Source of the DNA: Paraglomus occultum | Taxonomy: Eukaryota; Glomeromycota; Glomeromycetes; Paraglomerales; Paraglomeraceae | Reading direction: 5' to 3' | Assembly: GCA_910592205.1 (NCBI GenBank) | Contig: CAJVPJ010000036.1 | Span: 1 to 61,827, forward strand | DNA: 61,827 nucleotides | In this document: positions 7,814-14,876 of the stretch, one piece after another | Layout of the letters: the number at the start of each line of letters is the position of its first letter | Position numbering within the stretch: the stretch's first letter is position 1 | Made by a program: the position numbers and the translations under genes | The notes under the pieces: generated by a model | Told to the model about the DNA's origin: nothing | Seen by the model: only the letters and a program-made list of their open reading frames with translations | Databases searched by the model: none

Positions 7814-10800
7814 ATGATGGAAAAAACATCACCACCTGATTACGATAGTTTTGCAATATTCCCAGCTCTTAACATTGCACGTCTGGGTAACGCCAAAGGA
7901 TATTATGTTGGTTCCGAAATTCCTGGAGTGTATGTTGGAAGTAAGTTTTGACAAACCGTTAGTAATTACTTGTCTGCATCAAAAAATGTACCCGTGCGTT
8001 TAATAATGATTAATATTATTTTCATATTTACTGTCTTATAATATTATAGAGGGCAATCCTGATTTCCAATTTAAAATGAATGGTAAAATTATACCACAAG
8101 CCGCAAGGTTTAGAATCTATGGTTATAAAAACGACGAGAACTTGGGCGAGATAGACCTTAGCAAATATAAAGGTGTGACAATCAAATGGACTGTTGTACT
8201 GGCCAATAAGAAAGCAGCAAACAAAGCTTTTGAAGGCATGGCGCAGTATAATGCAAAAGGCCCTCTTCGAAATGCCGGTACGTAATTCTTGTACAGATTT
8301 TACAGTAGCAATGAATTTGCTATTAAAAAAATGTGCAAACTATCTTGTAGATTGGCCTCACGATAGATCGACGTTGATGGCTATTCAACAGCAAAGCCTA
8401 ACGTTTGATGGACATGGCCAACCACCATCGCCTAAAAAATTTAAGCCGCGAGTTTATCGTGAAAATATCGAAGATAAAGATGTTAACGACGGACATCAGT
8501 TAAAATTGGGCAAAATGATAGTAGAAAAACAAGGAAGTTTGTTAATTATCGGTGGAAAGGGAGAGTCTGGGAGTATTAAAGAAAGTTGGTATTAGTATAT
8601 TTTTGTAACTTTGTAAATATATTAATATGCTCAAATTAATTAATAACCCATGTTGTCATATTTTTGTAGATGCTATAATTACCGATTACGCAAACAATGA
8701 TTATTGGTACGATGACACTTGTGATGGTTCCATAGAGGCTACAGTTACAATCGCACATGATGAAAATTGTGAACCAAAGGTGCTCCAAAATAGAGGCAGG
8801 TTCCAAAACTACGCATTCAAGTGTATAGCTATCTGTTATAATAATAATGCTATTTTGATAATTAACCCGTGTACAATTTGTATTTAGAGGGAAAGTCATG
8901 GGTCCTTGTGGCACCTCCAAAGTATGCACCAGGTATTCGCAACGTTGTACCACTGTATCAAATTATCTTGGAAACGCAACACCCAGTTGATCCGGATTAT
9001 CCAGCAAATGATCCTGTAAATTATCTAAACAGTGATACGAGGGAAAAAAGGAAAGAAAATGTTCGTGTATTATTTGATCTGCGTTGCGGTATTATTGCTC
9101 GTGTAAACAGATAATTAACCATAATTATGCTATTCTGTACAGATGAAAGTGAATTACTACCGTGATATTTATCCAATCTTTGAAGCTGTCTGTAGAAACT
9201 CTTGGGTTAATGAGATGGGTTTTAGGGGTCATGGGACGGATAAGCCTGGTAACTTTTTAAATCCCAACTTGGAAATGAAGTTGAGCACTCCTCCAAGTGG
9301 TCAAGTTGATGATTACAAGCATATGAGGTTTGTTCGTTTATTATTTTTTTTTACCTTATTTTATTTTACCTTATTTTATTTTATTTTACCTTATTTTATT
9401 TTATTTTATTTTATTTTATTTTATTTTATTTTACCTTATTTTATTTTATTTTATTTTATTTTATTTTATTTTATTTTATTTTATTTTATTTTATTTTATT
9501 TTATTTTATTTTATATTGTTTTGTTTATTTAATCAAATCTAATTTAATTTTGTTTTGTCTTGTTTATTTAATTTAAATTTTTATTTCCTCTCCCCTTAAT
9601 ATTTCGTTGTGTTGATGAACAGAGAAAGCGTTTTATCTCGTGTCCGTATACCTTCCGAACTCGCAAGCTCGTTTGAATCCAATGGACAAGCTTATGATTA
9701 CTTCATGCCGCCTCTGTCTGGTATTGCTGGAGATGTACAAGCGAGTAACCCAGACACCTATTTAACTGTTACTCGGGGTCAATATTTGTAAGTAGTACAC
9801 CAGTCGTTCTACAATATTTAACTTAAATTAATATAAAATTTTTTATTAAGACTACTGCAAAAGTGGGCCAGGGGAGAATTTGAAAAAGGAGTTAAACCAC
9901 AAGATTACAAATACAATTACGAGTGCGATCCTGATCGACGAGAACCCACGTATGGTGACGATAAGATTGATTTTCAGGATATGGTTGCTAAAATCCTCGG
10001 CGATGCGAGTGATCAGGATAAGCTGGTTGCGCAAGTTCAGTTTTTAAACAAAGCCCCGCTCGAATGGTCTGTTGGAGGCGCATTCTTTCCTGGAATTGAA
10101 ATGACTTATTTGGCGTATGACAGGAATACATTTCATGAGTATTATGACTTTAGGTGAGCATAATTTACAAGCATCACGCACGTGTTTACTTATTTTTAAT
10201 ACATCATTGACATCCTTTTTCAATAAAGGATTAATTCCACCAATTTTCAACCTGGAGATATCAATAAATACATGGCTTTACCCTGGCAAGGCGATTTTTT
10301 CGAGTGCTCTAAAAATTGGTGGCCAGCTCAAAGGCCTGATATTGTAATTCCAAAAGAAGTATATGTAAGTAAAATCAACGTGATTTATTTTATTCGTAAA
10401 AATGAATTAATTGTTACTGATCATAGGAGAAAACAAGTGAAAAAAGAAAAATTCAGTCAGGCGACTTTGTGAAATGGACCCGCGGCTTTAGAGACAATGA
10501 ACAAAGTGACAACCAACCAAAATGGGGTGATTTGGACATGGTGAGAGTATGGTATAGGTATGTTAACGGTATATTTTTTTATCATACCTATGTATGATGC
10601 GATACTTTGATCTAAAATTATGAACTGTGTACAGATTGGGATTTGTTGTCGAGAAGGAAAACATCCTTGGTAACGATAAAGCATTCGTTGAGATTGAACA
10701 CGCACAAATTTATGGAGTCGATATTCAACAAGCGGATTATAAAACCCTAGACGATGTGAGAATCGTAATGCAATACTAATACTAGTTATATTGTTCACTT

Positions 10801-12997
10801 TATGCACACTAAACTTTTGAATTATTTTTTACTTAATCAACAGCTTTACGGTTTACTTAAAATTGCACTACAAGTTGAACTTAGTACTATTCCGCCGTAT
10901 CTTTATGCTTTGTATTCCATAAAACAAAACAAGACTGTAGGTGACTTGGTTAGCTATAAAATTCGCCATGTGGCTGCGGAGGAAATGTTGCACTCATCAC
11001 TTGTAGCGAATCTTATGGTTGCTATTGGTATGTTTTCTTGTTTCGGAATACGCGTTTGAATTAATGTCCTGATTTATAACAAAAATTTCTCCCAAATCCT
11101 GGGTAAATTAAAATTGGCAGGACGCGAGCCCATATTCTATTCCCAGGAAATGATGCCTTTCTATCCAAATCCTCTTCCCCATTTCGCCGATGGTAAAGAT
11201 ACTTTAATATTATTGATGTAGCCCAGTCTATCTCGTTTACTATTGTTCTCGAAATTTTAAGTCAAATAATTACATTGGCCAAATTTAGGTTCTTTACTGG
11301 TGAACTTGTCAAAAGCAGATGTAAATACCATCGAAACTTTTATAGAAATTGAGCGACCGGAACCAAAACCAAAACAACAAGAGCAACTTCGCAGAGCGTT
11401 AAAATCGATTAAGCTTTCGGAATCGGTATCAATTGAATACTTATTATCTGAAAAATTGAGATTCGATATTATTTGTAGTCTACTATTAACGTATTGAGCT
11501 GTGGTCTGTTTTAGGTCCAAGATATAAACTTTGAAAGTATTGCGACACTTTATGAAAAAATTCTAGAATTGTTCCAAAAACTCGATGGTAAAATCGAATA
11601 TCAAACCAACTTTCAGGTAATACATAATTAGAACGTTTAATTTTTGGGTAGTTTTTTGAATTACGGCAGGATATCTTCCATCTGTGTTATAGGTAAACTA
11701 TTAATGATTCGCAAATTTTGTTATAAACGTAGCTTGGACCTGGTATGGGTTATGCTCCGAGTACGGGTGCAGATAACGAAAGGGGTTTGATTGTTATTAA
11801 AGATTTAAAAAGCGCTACGGATGCTATTAATTTGATTATTGAACAGGTTAGACGTCAGCCTGATTAATTATTTGATTCGACTATCAGCCAACAATTGCAC
11901 GTCTCTTATTTAAGAAATGACAATCCTTTCGTTGTCTTTGGAATTGCACAGGGCGAAGGAGGGATATTACCGCCACCTCTACCTTTGAATAATCTAATCT
12001 TCACCGGGACTTTCACCGGTGAAACTAAAGCTGCGATTAATAGCGGTCAATTTGATATCAATATCAAAGGGAAAATTCAAGGAACTATCAATGACGAAAA
12101 TAAAACCATCGTTGGAAAAATCGAAAATGGAACAATCGAAGGAAACATTGAAGACAATCTCACTGTTGTAGGAAAAATTGTAGGAATTTTTAGAGGAAGC
12201 AAAAACGATAAAGTTGTTGAACAAATAATCGAAGGAAATTTTGTTAGCAACAATATCATTGGGAAAAAGAAAGCTGATACTACTGATGATATCTTTATTG
12301 CAACCAATGTCCAAACAAGCTTACACGGAAAAATCAATAACGCAATACTCGAAGAAGATTCCCACTATAATACGTTCAGAATGTGTAAGATGTTCATCGA
12401 AAACGCATCCGCGCCAGAATATCAGCTCTGGCCTGTCGTAGACAATCCAAACGTATCGTAAGTAAAAGATTACATGATTACAAGTTGTTTTTCTTCTTGC
12501 ACTATTCACCCCCTTTGGCATATCCCTCACCACACCGTGCTATATAGATCGTACAACGATCCAAAAATTATTAGTACCGCTACTGCGTTCAATGCTGCCT
12601 ATTCCTACCTTATGCTTTTATTGCAAAGCGCTTGGACAGTCGACGGTCACAAGAAAAGGACGTTCATAATTGGAGGGATGCCGGCATTAATGCATGGCAT
12701 TTTGAGGCCCATAGCGATATTTCTTGCTCGTATGTATTTATCCTGAATCTTTGGTTCTCACGCACAAGAATTATTTCTTACACACTTTTATTATGACTAC
12801 AAGAAAACCCCATTTCTACTGATACAAATGCGGGAGCTACCTTTGGCTTTTATCGATTCACTCGTGAGTCTAGTCCGAAAGAGCAACTAGACGCAGCTAT
12901 TCAAGAAGCTTCTAAGGCCTTCCCAACTAGCAAAGAATTGCAGAGTGCGGCAAACGTAGTCAAGACATTACCGGATATTTCCTTGCCAATCTTTTGA
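7814..12997 (+). CDS. LodA-type quinoprotein amino-acid oxidase fused to a VioB-type ferritin-like domain
   Basis: Nineteen exons (7814-7940, 8050-8277, 8351-8572, 8670-8779, 8890-9102, 9143-9327, 9623-9787, 9851-10153, 10229-10364, 10427-10557, 10635-10755, 10844-11027, 11121-11192, 11289-11425, 11515-11616, 11733-11846, 11952-12457, 12548-12729, 12804-12997) give 1143 aa with consistent phases. Residues 1-647 are LodA-like: FPALNIARLGNAKGYYVG at the start, TDYANNDYWYDDT, SWVLVAPPKYAPG, MPPLSG, QKWARGEF, GGAFFPGIE and ALPWQGDFFECSKNWWPAQ. Cys544 and Trp605 lie where LodA forms its cysteine-tryptophylquinone from Cys516 and Trp581. Residues from about 648 are a VioB-type ferritin-like domain (LQVELSTIPPYLYALYSI, AAEEMLHSSL, QGEGG..SHYNTF) carrying the expected Glu/His metal ligands. 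A repeat-rich insert splits it. No signal peptide is seen. The exon 5/6 junction has an alternative donor. The family oxidises an amino group of lysine or glycine and releases H2O2; the substrate here is unknown. Confidence 0.88.
9341..9514. repeat. TTTTA pentanucleotide microsatellite in intron 6 of the LodA-like gene
   Basis: About 35 near-perfect TTTTA units with a few TTACC variants. They lie entirely within the intron between the exons ending at 9327 and starting at 9623, the longest intron of this gene. Confidence 0.9.
11958..12350 (+). other. beta-repeat insert inside the ferritin-like domain
   Basis: Between the conserved QGEGG and SHYNTF ligand motifs lie about 130 residues of short repeats. 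Their typical units are GKIQGTI, GKIENGTI, EGNIEDN, VGKIVGIF and IEGNFVSNNIIGK. Alternating Gly, Ile/Val and Asn with a period of about 9-12 residues suggests a small beta-solenoid. The known VioB protein has these two motifs close together, so this is an insertion between two metal ligands of one active site. It has no stop codon and no frame break. Confidence 0.7.
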
Positions 12998-13408: not shown

Positions 13409-14876
13409 ATGGAAGAATCTCGACCACACAACGAACGTTCAGCAACATTTGATGTTATCATTATAGGCGGTGGTATCGCAGGATCATGCACAGCAATAAG
13501 GCTGGCCCAATTGTTCTCCTCGGCAGCTGCAACCTTGCGGAGGATTTTAGTCGTTGACGAGAAAACGACGAGTGCGGGCATATTCAAAGTTGGAGAATCC
13601 TTACCCGGAGAATCAAAGCATATACTCAAGACACTAGGCGTATTTGAAGCGGTGAACAATGATGCAAAGCAAGGTATCGATATTCGAACGATAACCTGTG
13701 TAATAATTCACACATTTTAACCGTTTACCATCGGTTCATAGGGAAACATAATTTCTGTTACGGAAATTCTTCTGCGTGGGGTTCCGATGAATTGCACGAT
13801 ACGAGCACGATATTCAATGCCTATGGTGATGGATTTCATTTGAACAGGTCCCTGTTTGATGAAACGTTGATTAAAACTGCCGAGTCACAGCATGATCCAT
13901 TCATTACGATTATACGCGATTCCGTGACCAAGTCACTTCTTGTAGAAAATGATGACGGGGAGAAATATTGGAAGGTTTCGATTTCGAGTAATGGTAGGTT
14001 GGCTACATACATCTGCGATGGGTGGCGTCCGCCAAGTTAAAAAATCTGAATATTTTTCGTTTCGTTATCAGAATTACCGATCCACGGAAACGTTCTCGTC
14101 GATGCAAGTGGCCGTCGCTGTTTCATCCGAAAATGTTTTCCAGACTTGGAACGCACCGCCTTTGATAAATTGCTGGCTTTTGCATGTTTATTCGAAACCG
14201 ATAATTCTCAACTGCCCGATTCAGACCATCATACCCTTGTGGAATCCTGCGCTTTTGGATGGTGGTATACTAGTCTTTTACCCAACAAGCAACGAATTGT
14301 CGGTTTCCATACCGACGATGATCTAATAAAACTCATTAACAAGAAAAGAAAGATCAGGCAAGCTGAAGAGTTTTACGAATTTATGAGAGAAACTGCTCCG
14401 CATACTACCAAGCGTATAAATGAGCATTCATATTGTCCTGGGGGAAAAAGAGTCATGTGTATGCCTGCGAATTCAGAAAGCCTTTTTCGGTTTGGTATGT
14501 GTCTGATTGTTGTTACCATCGAGTTTAAGACATAAACATTTACGAGTTCAACTCCCAATCCAAACCAGCGTCTTACGAAAATAGATGGATAGCAATTGGC
14601 GATAGTGCTGTTTCTTTTGATCCGCTCTCATCCCAAGGGATGCTCACCGCACTGTACAGTGCGAAACTTGGTGCGGAAGCAATATTTTTTCAGTACTTTA
14701 ACGGCAAAAAGACGAGAAACAAAGAAGTAACAGTCCAACCATTAGAAATCTTTCAGCAATACATTGAGAACACGTTTCATAAATATAAGAGCGAGAAAAG
14801 GTTTTTCTATAATAAGGAACAAAGATGGCGTGATGAAGTTTTTTGGAGAAGACGACATGAGGATCACATTGAGTGA
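13409..14876 (+). CDS. LodB-like FAD-dependent oxidoreductase (tryptophan-halogenase superfamily)
   Basis: Four exons (13409-13673, 13742-13993, 14072-14494, 14530-14876) give 428 aa. The start is the first ATG before the FAD fold. The N-terminus has the dinucleotide-binding motif VIIIGGGIAGS (GxGxxG), then VGESLPGESKHILKTLG, the sugar/FAD signature of LodB and flavin halogenases. Then come GDGFHLNRSLFD, LVDASGRR, VESCAFGWWYTSLLP and, near the C-terminus, RWIAIGDSAVSFDPLSSQG, the second FAD-binding motif. The halogenase WxWxIP motif is not present, so halogenation is unlikely. In bacteria lodB lies next to lodA and its flavoprotein is required to build the quinone cofactor; the same order and strand here argues for that role. 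The last intron uses an acceptor inside TTTAAG; other boundaries are clear. Confidence 0.88.

Follow-up and report, generated by a model that had tools for sequence, protein, structure and literature searches.

A LodA-type oxidase joined to a PF12902 ferritin-like domain in Paraglomus occultum and other root-symbiotic fungi

The cysteine tryptophylquinone (CTQ) cofactor of LodA is formed from C516 and W581 (PMC4417212), and the LodA and GoxA enzymes characterised in the cited literature are bacterial. Passages of the same paper (BMC Genomics 2015) describe LodA fused to catalase-fold PF00199 domains in bacteria, link the LodA family also to PF14518, with five cases described as N-terminal, and report a LodA–von Willebrand-A-type fusion in actinobacteria. 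They also place lodA (fungal group V), lodB and a PF12902 gene side by side as separate genes in Agaricomycetes. Here we analysed a stretch of 61,827 nucleotides from Paraglomus occultum (the window; contig CAJVPJ010000036.1 of assembly GCA_910592205.1), where sequence comparison confirms that one predicted gene encodes a LodA_N–LodA_C–ferritin-like (PF12902) protein. As in the Agaricomycete trio described in those passages, the three parts are close neighbours in the window, again in the genome of a fungus. There, however, all three are separate genes with lodB in the opposite orientation, whereas here oxidase and ferritin-like parts are fused and a lodB-like gene lies behind them on the same strand.

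An unfused trio and the joining of LodA to other redox domains have already been published. The fused eukaryotic protein, its spread through Glomeromycota and a beta-rich insert in its ferritin-like half did not turn up among the open-licence PMC papers listed by searches, those aimed at arbuscular mycorrhizal (AM) fungi included. The fusion offers LodA-family biochemistry a eukaryotic model, makes the role of PF12902 for an oxidase a concrete, testable question, and draws attention to an oxidative step of obligate symbionts that is still unexplored.

One gene for both halves

Exon-by-exon assembly of the fusion gene gave a single open frame with consistent phases and a sole stop at 12995–12997 (Table 1). 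Intron 5 was placed at 9061–9142 by homology to the Glomus cerebriforme protein P0005, which shows 15 extra residues; the Pfam, equivalog and protein-homolog searches used an 1124-aa version without these. The GC-AG borders of intron 4 (8796–8887) are supported by P0005, which reads 'NREGKSWVLVAPPKY', and the remaining 17 introns are GT-AG. Intron 6 (9328–9622) spans 295 bases filled with TTTTA repeats, the other 17 introns 62–116 bases. A first-pass annotation of this DNA had proposed a eukaryotic LodA-type oxidase fused to a ferritin-like domain, encoded by 19 exons as 1143 aa, with the junction at 10755/10844 as the key one to confirm. The frame and its phases stood and the junction coordinates proved exact, at phase 0; the length becomes 1139 aa once intron 5 is placed. 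LodA_N (E 4e-43, 148.4 bits), LodA_C (E 2.5e-22, 79.7 bits) and PF12902 (E 1e-43) all exceeded their Pfam cut-offs by a wide margin. That annotation mentioned neither the lodB-like neighbour, nor the insert, nor how widely AM fungi carry the fusion.

Support for the junction comes from the linker '...LDxLYxLLxIALQxELSTIP', which, in varying form, crosses it unbroken in all 20 aligned relatives. These include P0019 and P0020, both with transcript-assembly (TRINITY) names, and P0002, an uninterrupted 1172-aa fusion protein (longest JGI contig, 3985 bases). If intron 11 were read through, the frame would hit a stop after seven further codons. Wrong joining of neighbouring oxidase and ferritin-like genes at 10755/10844, an artefact that the first-pass annotation had already argued against, can therefore hardly account for the model. 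In its favour, no Paraglomus record of the fusion protein appeared among the matches listed, so public annotation may lack or split the gene. Against it, the same order occurs in 20 of the 120 homologs listed, two of them transcript-named, and all 20 have the linker across the junction; the artefact is nearly refuted already. Beyond the junction, the half that the earlier model numbered 648–1143 carries the PF12902 match; the window protein aligns with a genuine VioB (L086) at 24% identity over residues 648–855.

Table 1. Coordinates of the fusion gene, its predicted features and the lodB-like neighbour
Feature	Position in window	Strand	Details	Basis
lodA-ferritin fusion gene	7814-12997	+	19 exons, 1139 aa	exon-by-exon assembly
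Exons 1-7	7814-7940, 8050-8277, 8351-8584, 8670-8795, 8888-9060, 9143-9327, 9623-9787	+		
Exons 8-13	9851-10153, 10229-10364, 10427-10557, 10635-10755, 10844-11027, 11121-11192	+		
Exons 14-19	11289-11425, 11515-11616, 11733-11846, 11952-12457, 12548-12729, 12804-12997	+		
Intron 11, fusion junction	10756-10843	+	phase 0	
LodA_N domain	7859-8764	+	residues 16-228	Pfam
LodA_C domain	9732-10343	+	residues 395-552 (380-537 in 1124-aa version)	Pfam
Predicted CTQ site	10293-10322	+	D536, C540, W545	alignment to LodA/GoxA
Ferritin-like half (PF12902)	10844-12994	+	residues 644-1139	Pfam, alignment
Candidate di-iron ligands	10877-10879, 10982-10984, 10991-10993, 11351-11353	+	E655, E690, H693, E750	
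Candidate di-iron ligands	11955-11957, 12354-12356, 12363-12365	+	E848, E981, H984	
Beta-rich insert	11961-12347	+	residues 850-978 (129), wholly in exon 17	
lodB-like flavoprotein gene	13409-14876	+	415 aa; exons 13409-13673, 13742-13993, 14072-14494, 14569-14876	

The window protein shares with the solved LodA (2ymw/3weu) and GoxA (6byw) the LodA_N/LodA_C fold, the CTQ cysteine and tryptophan, the active-site aspartate and a LodB-type gene nearby. In the alignment with these structures, D536 falls on GoxA D678 and C540/W545 on the CTQ pair (C516/W581 of LodA), and each of the three residues is kept in 21/21 rows (the window and P0001–P0020). The Cys-Trp spacing counted there is +5, compared with +65 in LodA and +15 in GoxA. 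The window protein differs further in its extra C-terminal ferritin-like half and in F/Y replacing GoxA His583 (F492 in the window; across the 21 rows, F stands there 12 times, Y 8 times and H once). Because that position is F or Y in 20/21 rows, a glycine or lysine substrate should not be assumed. The NCBIfam equivalog scores lie below cut-off for both the LodA lysine 6-oxidase (147.4 of 600 bits) and the GoxA glycine oxidase (218.5 of 750 bits). By eye, without a predictor, no export signal was seen at the N-terminus.

The ferritin-like half holds the motif set E, ExxH, E, ExxH expected of di-iron carboxylate ligands. E655 is kept in 21/21 rows and E690 and H693 in 20/20 (P0008 has a deletion there); among rows reaching each position, E750 is kept in 18/18, E848 in 17/17 and H984 in 18/18. 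Over 54 sequences, 35 of them stand-alone relatives picked by hand from 113 listed, every ligand position except E981 is invariant or at least 90% constant. The insert sits between the QGEG and ExxH motifs, splitting the predicted metal site, and is present in 13 of the 18 Glomeromycota rows measured; it is missing from the Funneliformis copies. A structural model of a relative with a related insert predicts an intact ferritin fold.

Spread and history of the fusion

The search for the same architecture elsewhere, suggested in the first-pass annotation, returned 247 protein matches, of which the best 120 were listed and examined. LodA and PF12902 occur together in 21/120: P0001–P0018, the EukProt proteins P0019 and P0020, and the reversed P0114; the rest have PF14518 instead (96/120) or neither domain (3/120). 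The fungal order, LodA then ferritin-like, was seen by alignment in P0001–P0020, and Pfam scans of P0003, P0019 and P0020 show it too; P0005, P0016 and P0017 contain just part of the ferritin half. Seventeen of P0001–P0018 come from named Glomeromycota and P0002 is a JGI protein. The genera are Rhizophagus, Glomus, Ambispora, Dentiscutata, Cetraspora, Funneliformis, Entrophospora, Acaulospora, Racocetra and Gigaspora, so that, with Paraglomus, the fusion occurs in at least 11 genera of plant root symbionts. No bacterial protein in the fungal order was found among the 120 of 247 matches listed; one should have scored higher than matches to a single half. A third TRINITY-named EukProt protein, P0243, reads LodA_C then PF12902, and has a ubiquitin-like domain (residues 315–371) inside the ferritin-like region, placed unlike the AM-fungal insert.

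In a quick maximum-likelihood (ML) tree of LodA parts (52 rows, including 31 bacterial rows chosen by hand), a branch with SH-aLRT 100 set the 19 Glomeromycota sequences apart, and these joined the two EukProt rows (98), themselves long-branched. This topology agrees with one fusion event in a eukaryotic line, without proving it. The Paraglomus and Glomus cerebriforme copies (P0005/P0122) are 74–75% identical in the LodA part and 84% in LodB; the LodA tree pairs them as sisters, in a clade that also holds Rhizophagus and Acaulospora. Paraglomus is a deep branch, and paralogy, transfer between AM fungi or a mislabelled sequence are candidate explanations of this closeness. In Glomus cerebriforme, P0005 stops partway through a ferritin domain and P0241, on another contig, starts within that domain; they are probably a single gene cut by assembly.

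Proposed reaction and competing explanations

We hypothesize, with about as much confidence as doubt, a two-step enzyme in which quinone-dependent amine oxidation is coupled to a di-iron domain using H2O2 and/or the imine product. In the first step, the LodB-like flavoprotein would help convert C540/W545 into CTQ, and the LodA half would oxidise a primary amine, whether an amino acid or another amine, to an imine or carbonyl, releasing ammonia and H2O2; the family assignment is direct and the chemistry is drawn from the family. For the second step, all of which we infer, the ferritin-like half would bind two irons through E655, E690xxH693, E750 and/or E848, and E981xxH984. The di-iron centre would consume the H2O2 of step one and probably spend it (or O2) on oxidising the imine or carbonyl product. 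The enzyme is probably cytosolic, and fusion would keep both reactive products local. A similar pairing was seen on plasmids, where a PF12902 gene lies directly behind a GMC oxidoreductase in 3/6 loci opened (25 listed, from 168 matching records), a share biased by one locus having been picked because its listing named GMC. Pfam confirmed GMC in both neighbours scanned, and the neighbour in L094 had no family match. Since GMC and LodA oxidases can share H2O2 and a carbonyl or imine as products, we give most weight to a di-iron domain that acts on these where they arise, less to mere disposal of peroxide and least to dimer formation. Taken furthest, and as a tentative proposal we think somewhat unlikely in its entirety, AM fungi would possess a CTQ/di-iron tandem, served by a maturase of its own, that turns an amine directly into a novel oxidised metabolite without H2O2 release. 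It would be a eukaryotic quinocofactor branch, fused once, in which the second active site has a small beta-barrel-like insert that may shape it or sense substrate.

Several observations weigh against the two-step proposal. PF12902 proteins of known function (VioB/RebD/StaD) perform coupling, not peroxide use, and the GMC proteins could be dehydrogenases. Iron occupancy, H2O2 use and any channel between the halves are inferred, and the two-domain structural model is of low confidence (pTM 0.48, pLDDT below 50 in the CTQ region). E981 varies over 18 rows, being E in 13 and D in 4, with Q in the Ambispora protein P0006. The LodB model matches the neighbour over its full length at 213.8 bits, yet below both 400-bit equivalog cut-offs. 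Adjacency of the two genes may also be absent in some species, the best LodA-ferritin and LodB matches lying on different-sized contigs in Glomus cerebriforme (17481/13785 vs 214740), Funneliformis geosporum (35818 vs 41217), Entrophospora SA101 (28246 vs 102207) and Rhizophagus clarus.

The strongest competitor, though rather unlikely, casts the ferritin-like half as a di-iron peroxidase or catalase-like guard that destroys the oxidase's H2O2 inside the cell and has no part in the product. Fungi have catalases, which counts against this reading. The apparent lack of an export signal fits the guard, as do a weak Mn-catalase match of the relative P0242 (E 0.027, below cut-off) and the bacterial PF00199 fusions described in passages of PMC4417212; VioB, however, has the same metal motifs and, by part of PMC10851217, takes part in product formation. 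Less probable still is a non-catalytic iron-binding or assembly domain whose metal site the insert would block. The insert does lie between two ligand motifs in most Glomeromycota rows measured, but those motifs stay near-constant even in insert-bearing copies, and the modelled fold of the insert-bearing relative is predicted to remain intact.

The first-pass annotation had favoured a tandem of the VioB/RebD kind: LodA would supply imines and a 'VioB-type' half would couple two of them, a self-contained route to a dimer. We consider this improbable, if somewhat less so than a non-catalytic domain. The domain relation is real at the sequence level: our ferritin profile aligns to residues 600–936 of L086 (76.8 bits), VioB carries the motifs ELS, EEMIH, FEWP, EQGEG and ESSHF, and it too acts downstream of an amino-acid oxidase. 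The indolocarbazole pathway, as described in part of PMC10851217, pairs such an oxidase with a RebD-kind coupling enzyme. 'VioB-type' nevertheless overstated the likeness, PF12902 being a broad domain. Against the VioB equivalog TIGR04492 the ferritin-like half scores just 21.7 bits (cut-off 1250), compared with 1746.7 for L086, which comes from the one genome of 399 above it. The first 600 residues of L086, the part that distinguishes VioB, match neither half significantly and are absent from the window protein, and the LodA profile finds nothing in L086; coupling cannot be inferred for that reason, and the dimer route is unsupported. VioB's own oxidase is a separate flavoenzyme, and portions of PMC10851217 and PMC2810235 describe VioB and chromopyrrolic acid synthases as heme proteins.

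The lodB-like gene and bacterial relatives

The lodB-like gene lies directly downstream of the fusion gene. Its product is identical letter for letter to the annotated Paraglomus occultum protein P0121, which appears in public data merely as a numbered coding sequence; the LodB family search and tree used a 428-aa version, 13 residues too long. By equal contig sizes and consecutive names, the two genes are neighbours in Ambispora leptoticha and Funneliformis mosseae as well, so a maturase-type gene adjoins the fusion in at least three species, the window included; several further species are represented by short contigs alone. In the LodB ML tree (55 rows), 18 Glomeromycota rows united with support 99 (the window and P0121 being the same sequence), and ten Agaricomycete rows formed their own set with two further rows (support 100). 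Both fungal sets, with four further rows in all, grouped at a modest 86. In this LodB comparison the Agaricomycete and Glomeromycota groups are separate clades.

For bacteria, 80 of 539 confirmed loci were kept from a genome scan. By our own profiles, LodB exceeded 100 bits in 76/80, a PF14518 (HDO-type) part stood in LodA's frame in 23/80, and a ferritin-like match occurred in 2/80: L079, fused, and L048, an acidobacterial metagenome-assembled genome (MAG) with a separate frame just upstream of LodA. Bacteria join LodA to PF14518 more often than to PF12902. These LodA–PF14518 fusions (the 96 listed matches and loci such as L039) resemble the window protein in joining LodA to a C-terminal iron-containing redox domain, with LodB adjoining in most loci, but PF14518 is heme-oxygenase-like and a different family from PF12902. 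The domain was C-terminal to LodA in both proteins scanned (P0023 and P0052). LodA and PF12902 meet rarely in bacteria, and both fused cases seen, L079:455-3355 (a Calothrix MAG) and P0114, have the ferritin-like part first. These join the same two families in one frame; their LodA part does not stand beside the fungal ones in the tree. In L045 (5851–9426) and L051 (5872–9273), LodA carries a C-terminal part that, by eye, looks von Willebrand-A-like ('VLDRSGSM'). The plasmid loci with PF12902 behind GMC (L092, L095 and L096) come from Rhizobium, Bradyrhizobium and Pseudoalteromonas, and a 909-aa Rhizobium plasmid protein (L097:3195-5924) joins YCF48/BNR repeats to PF12902.

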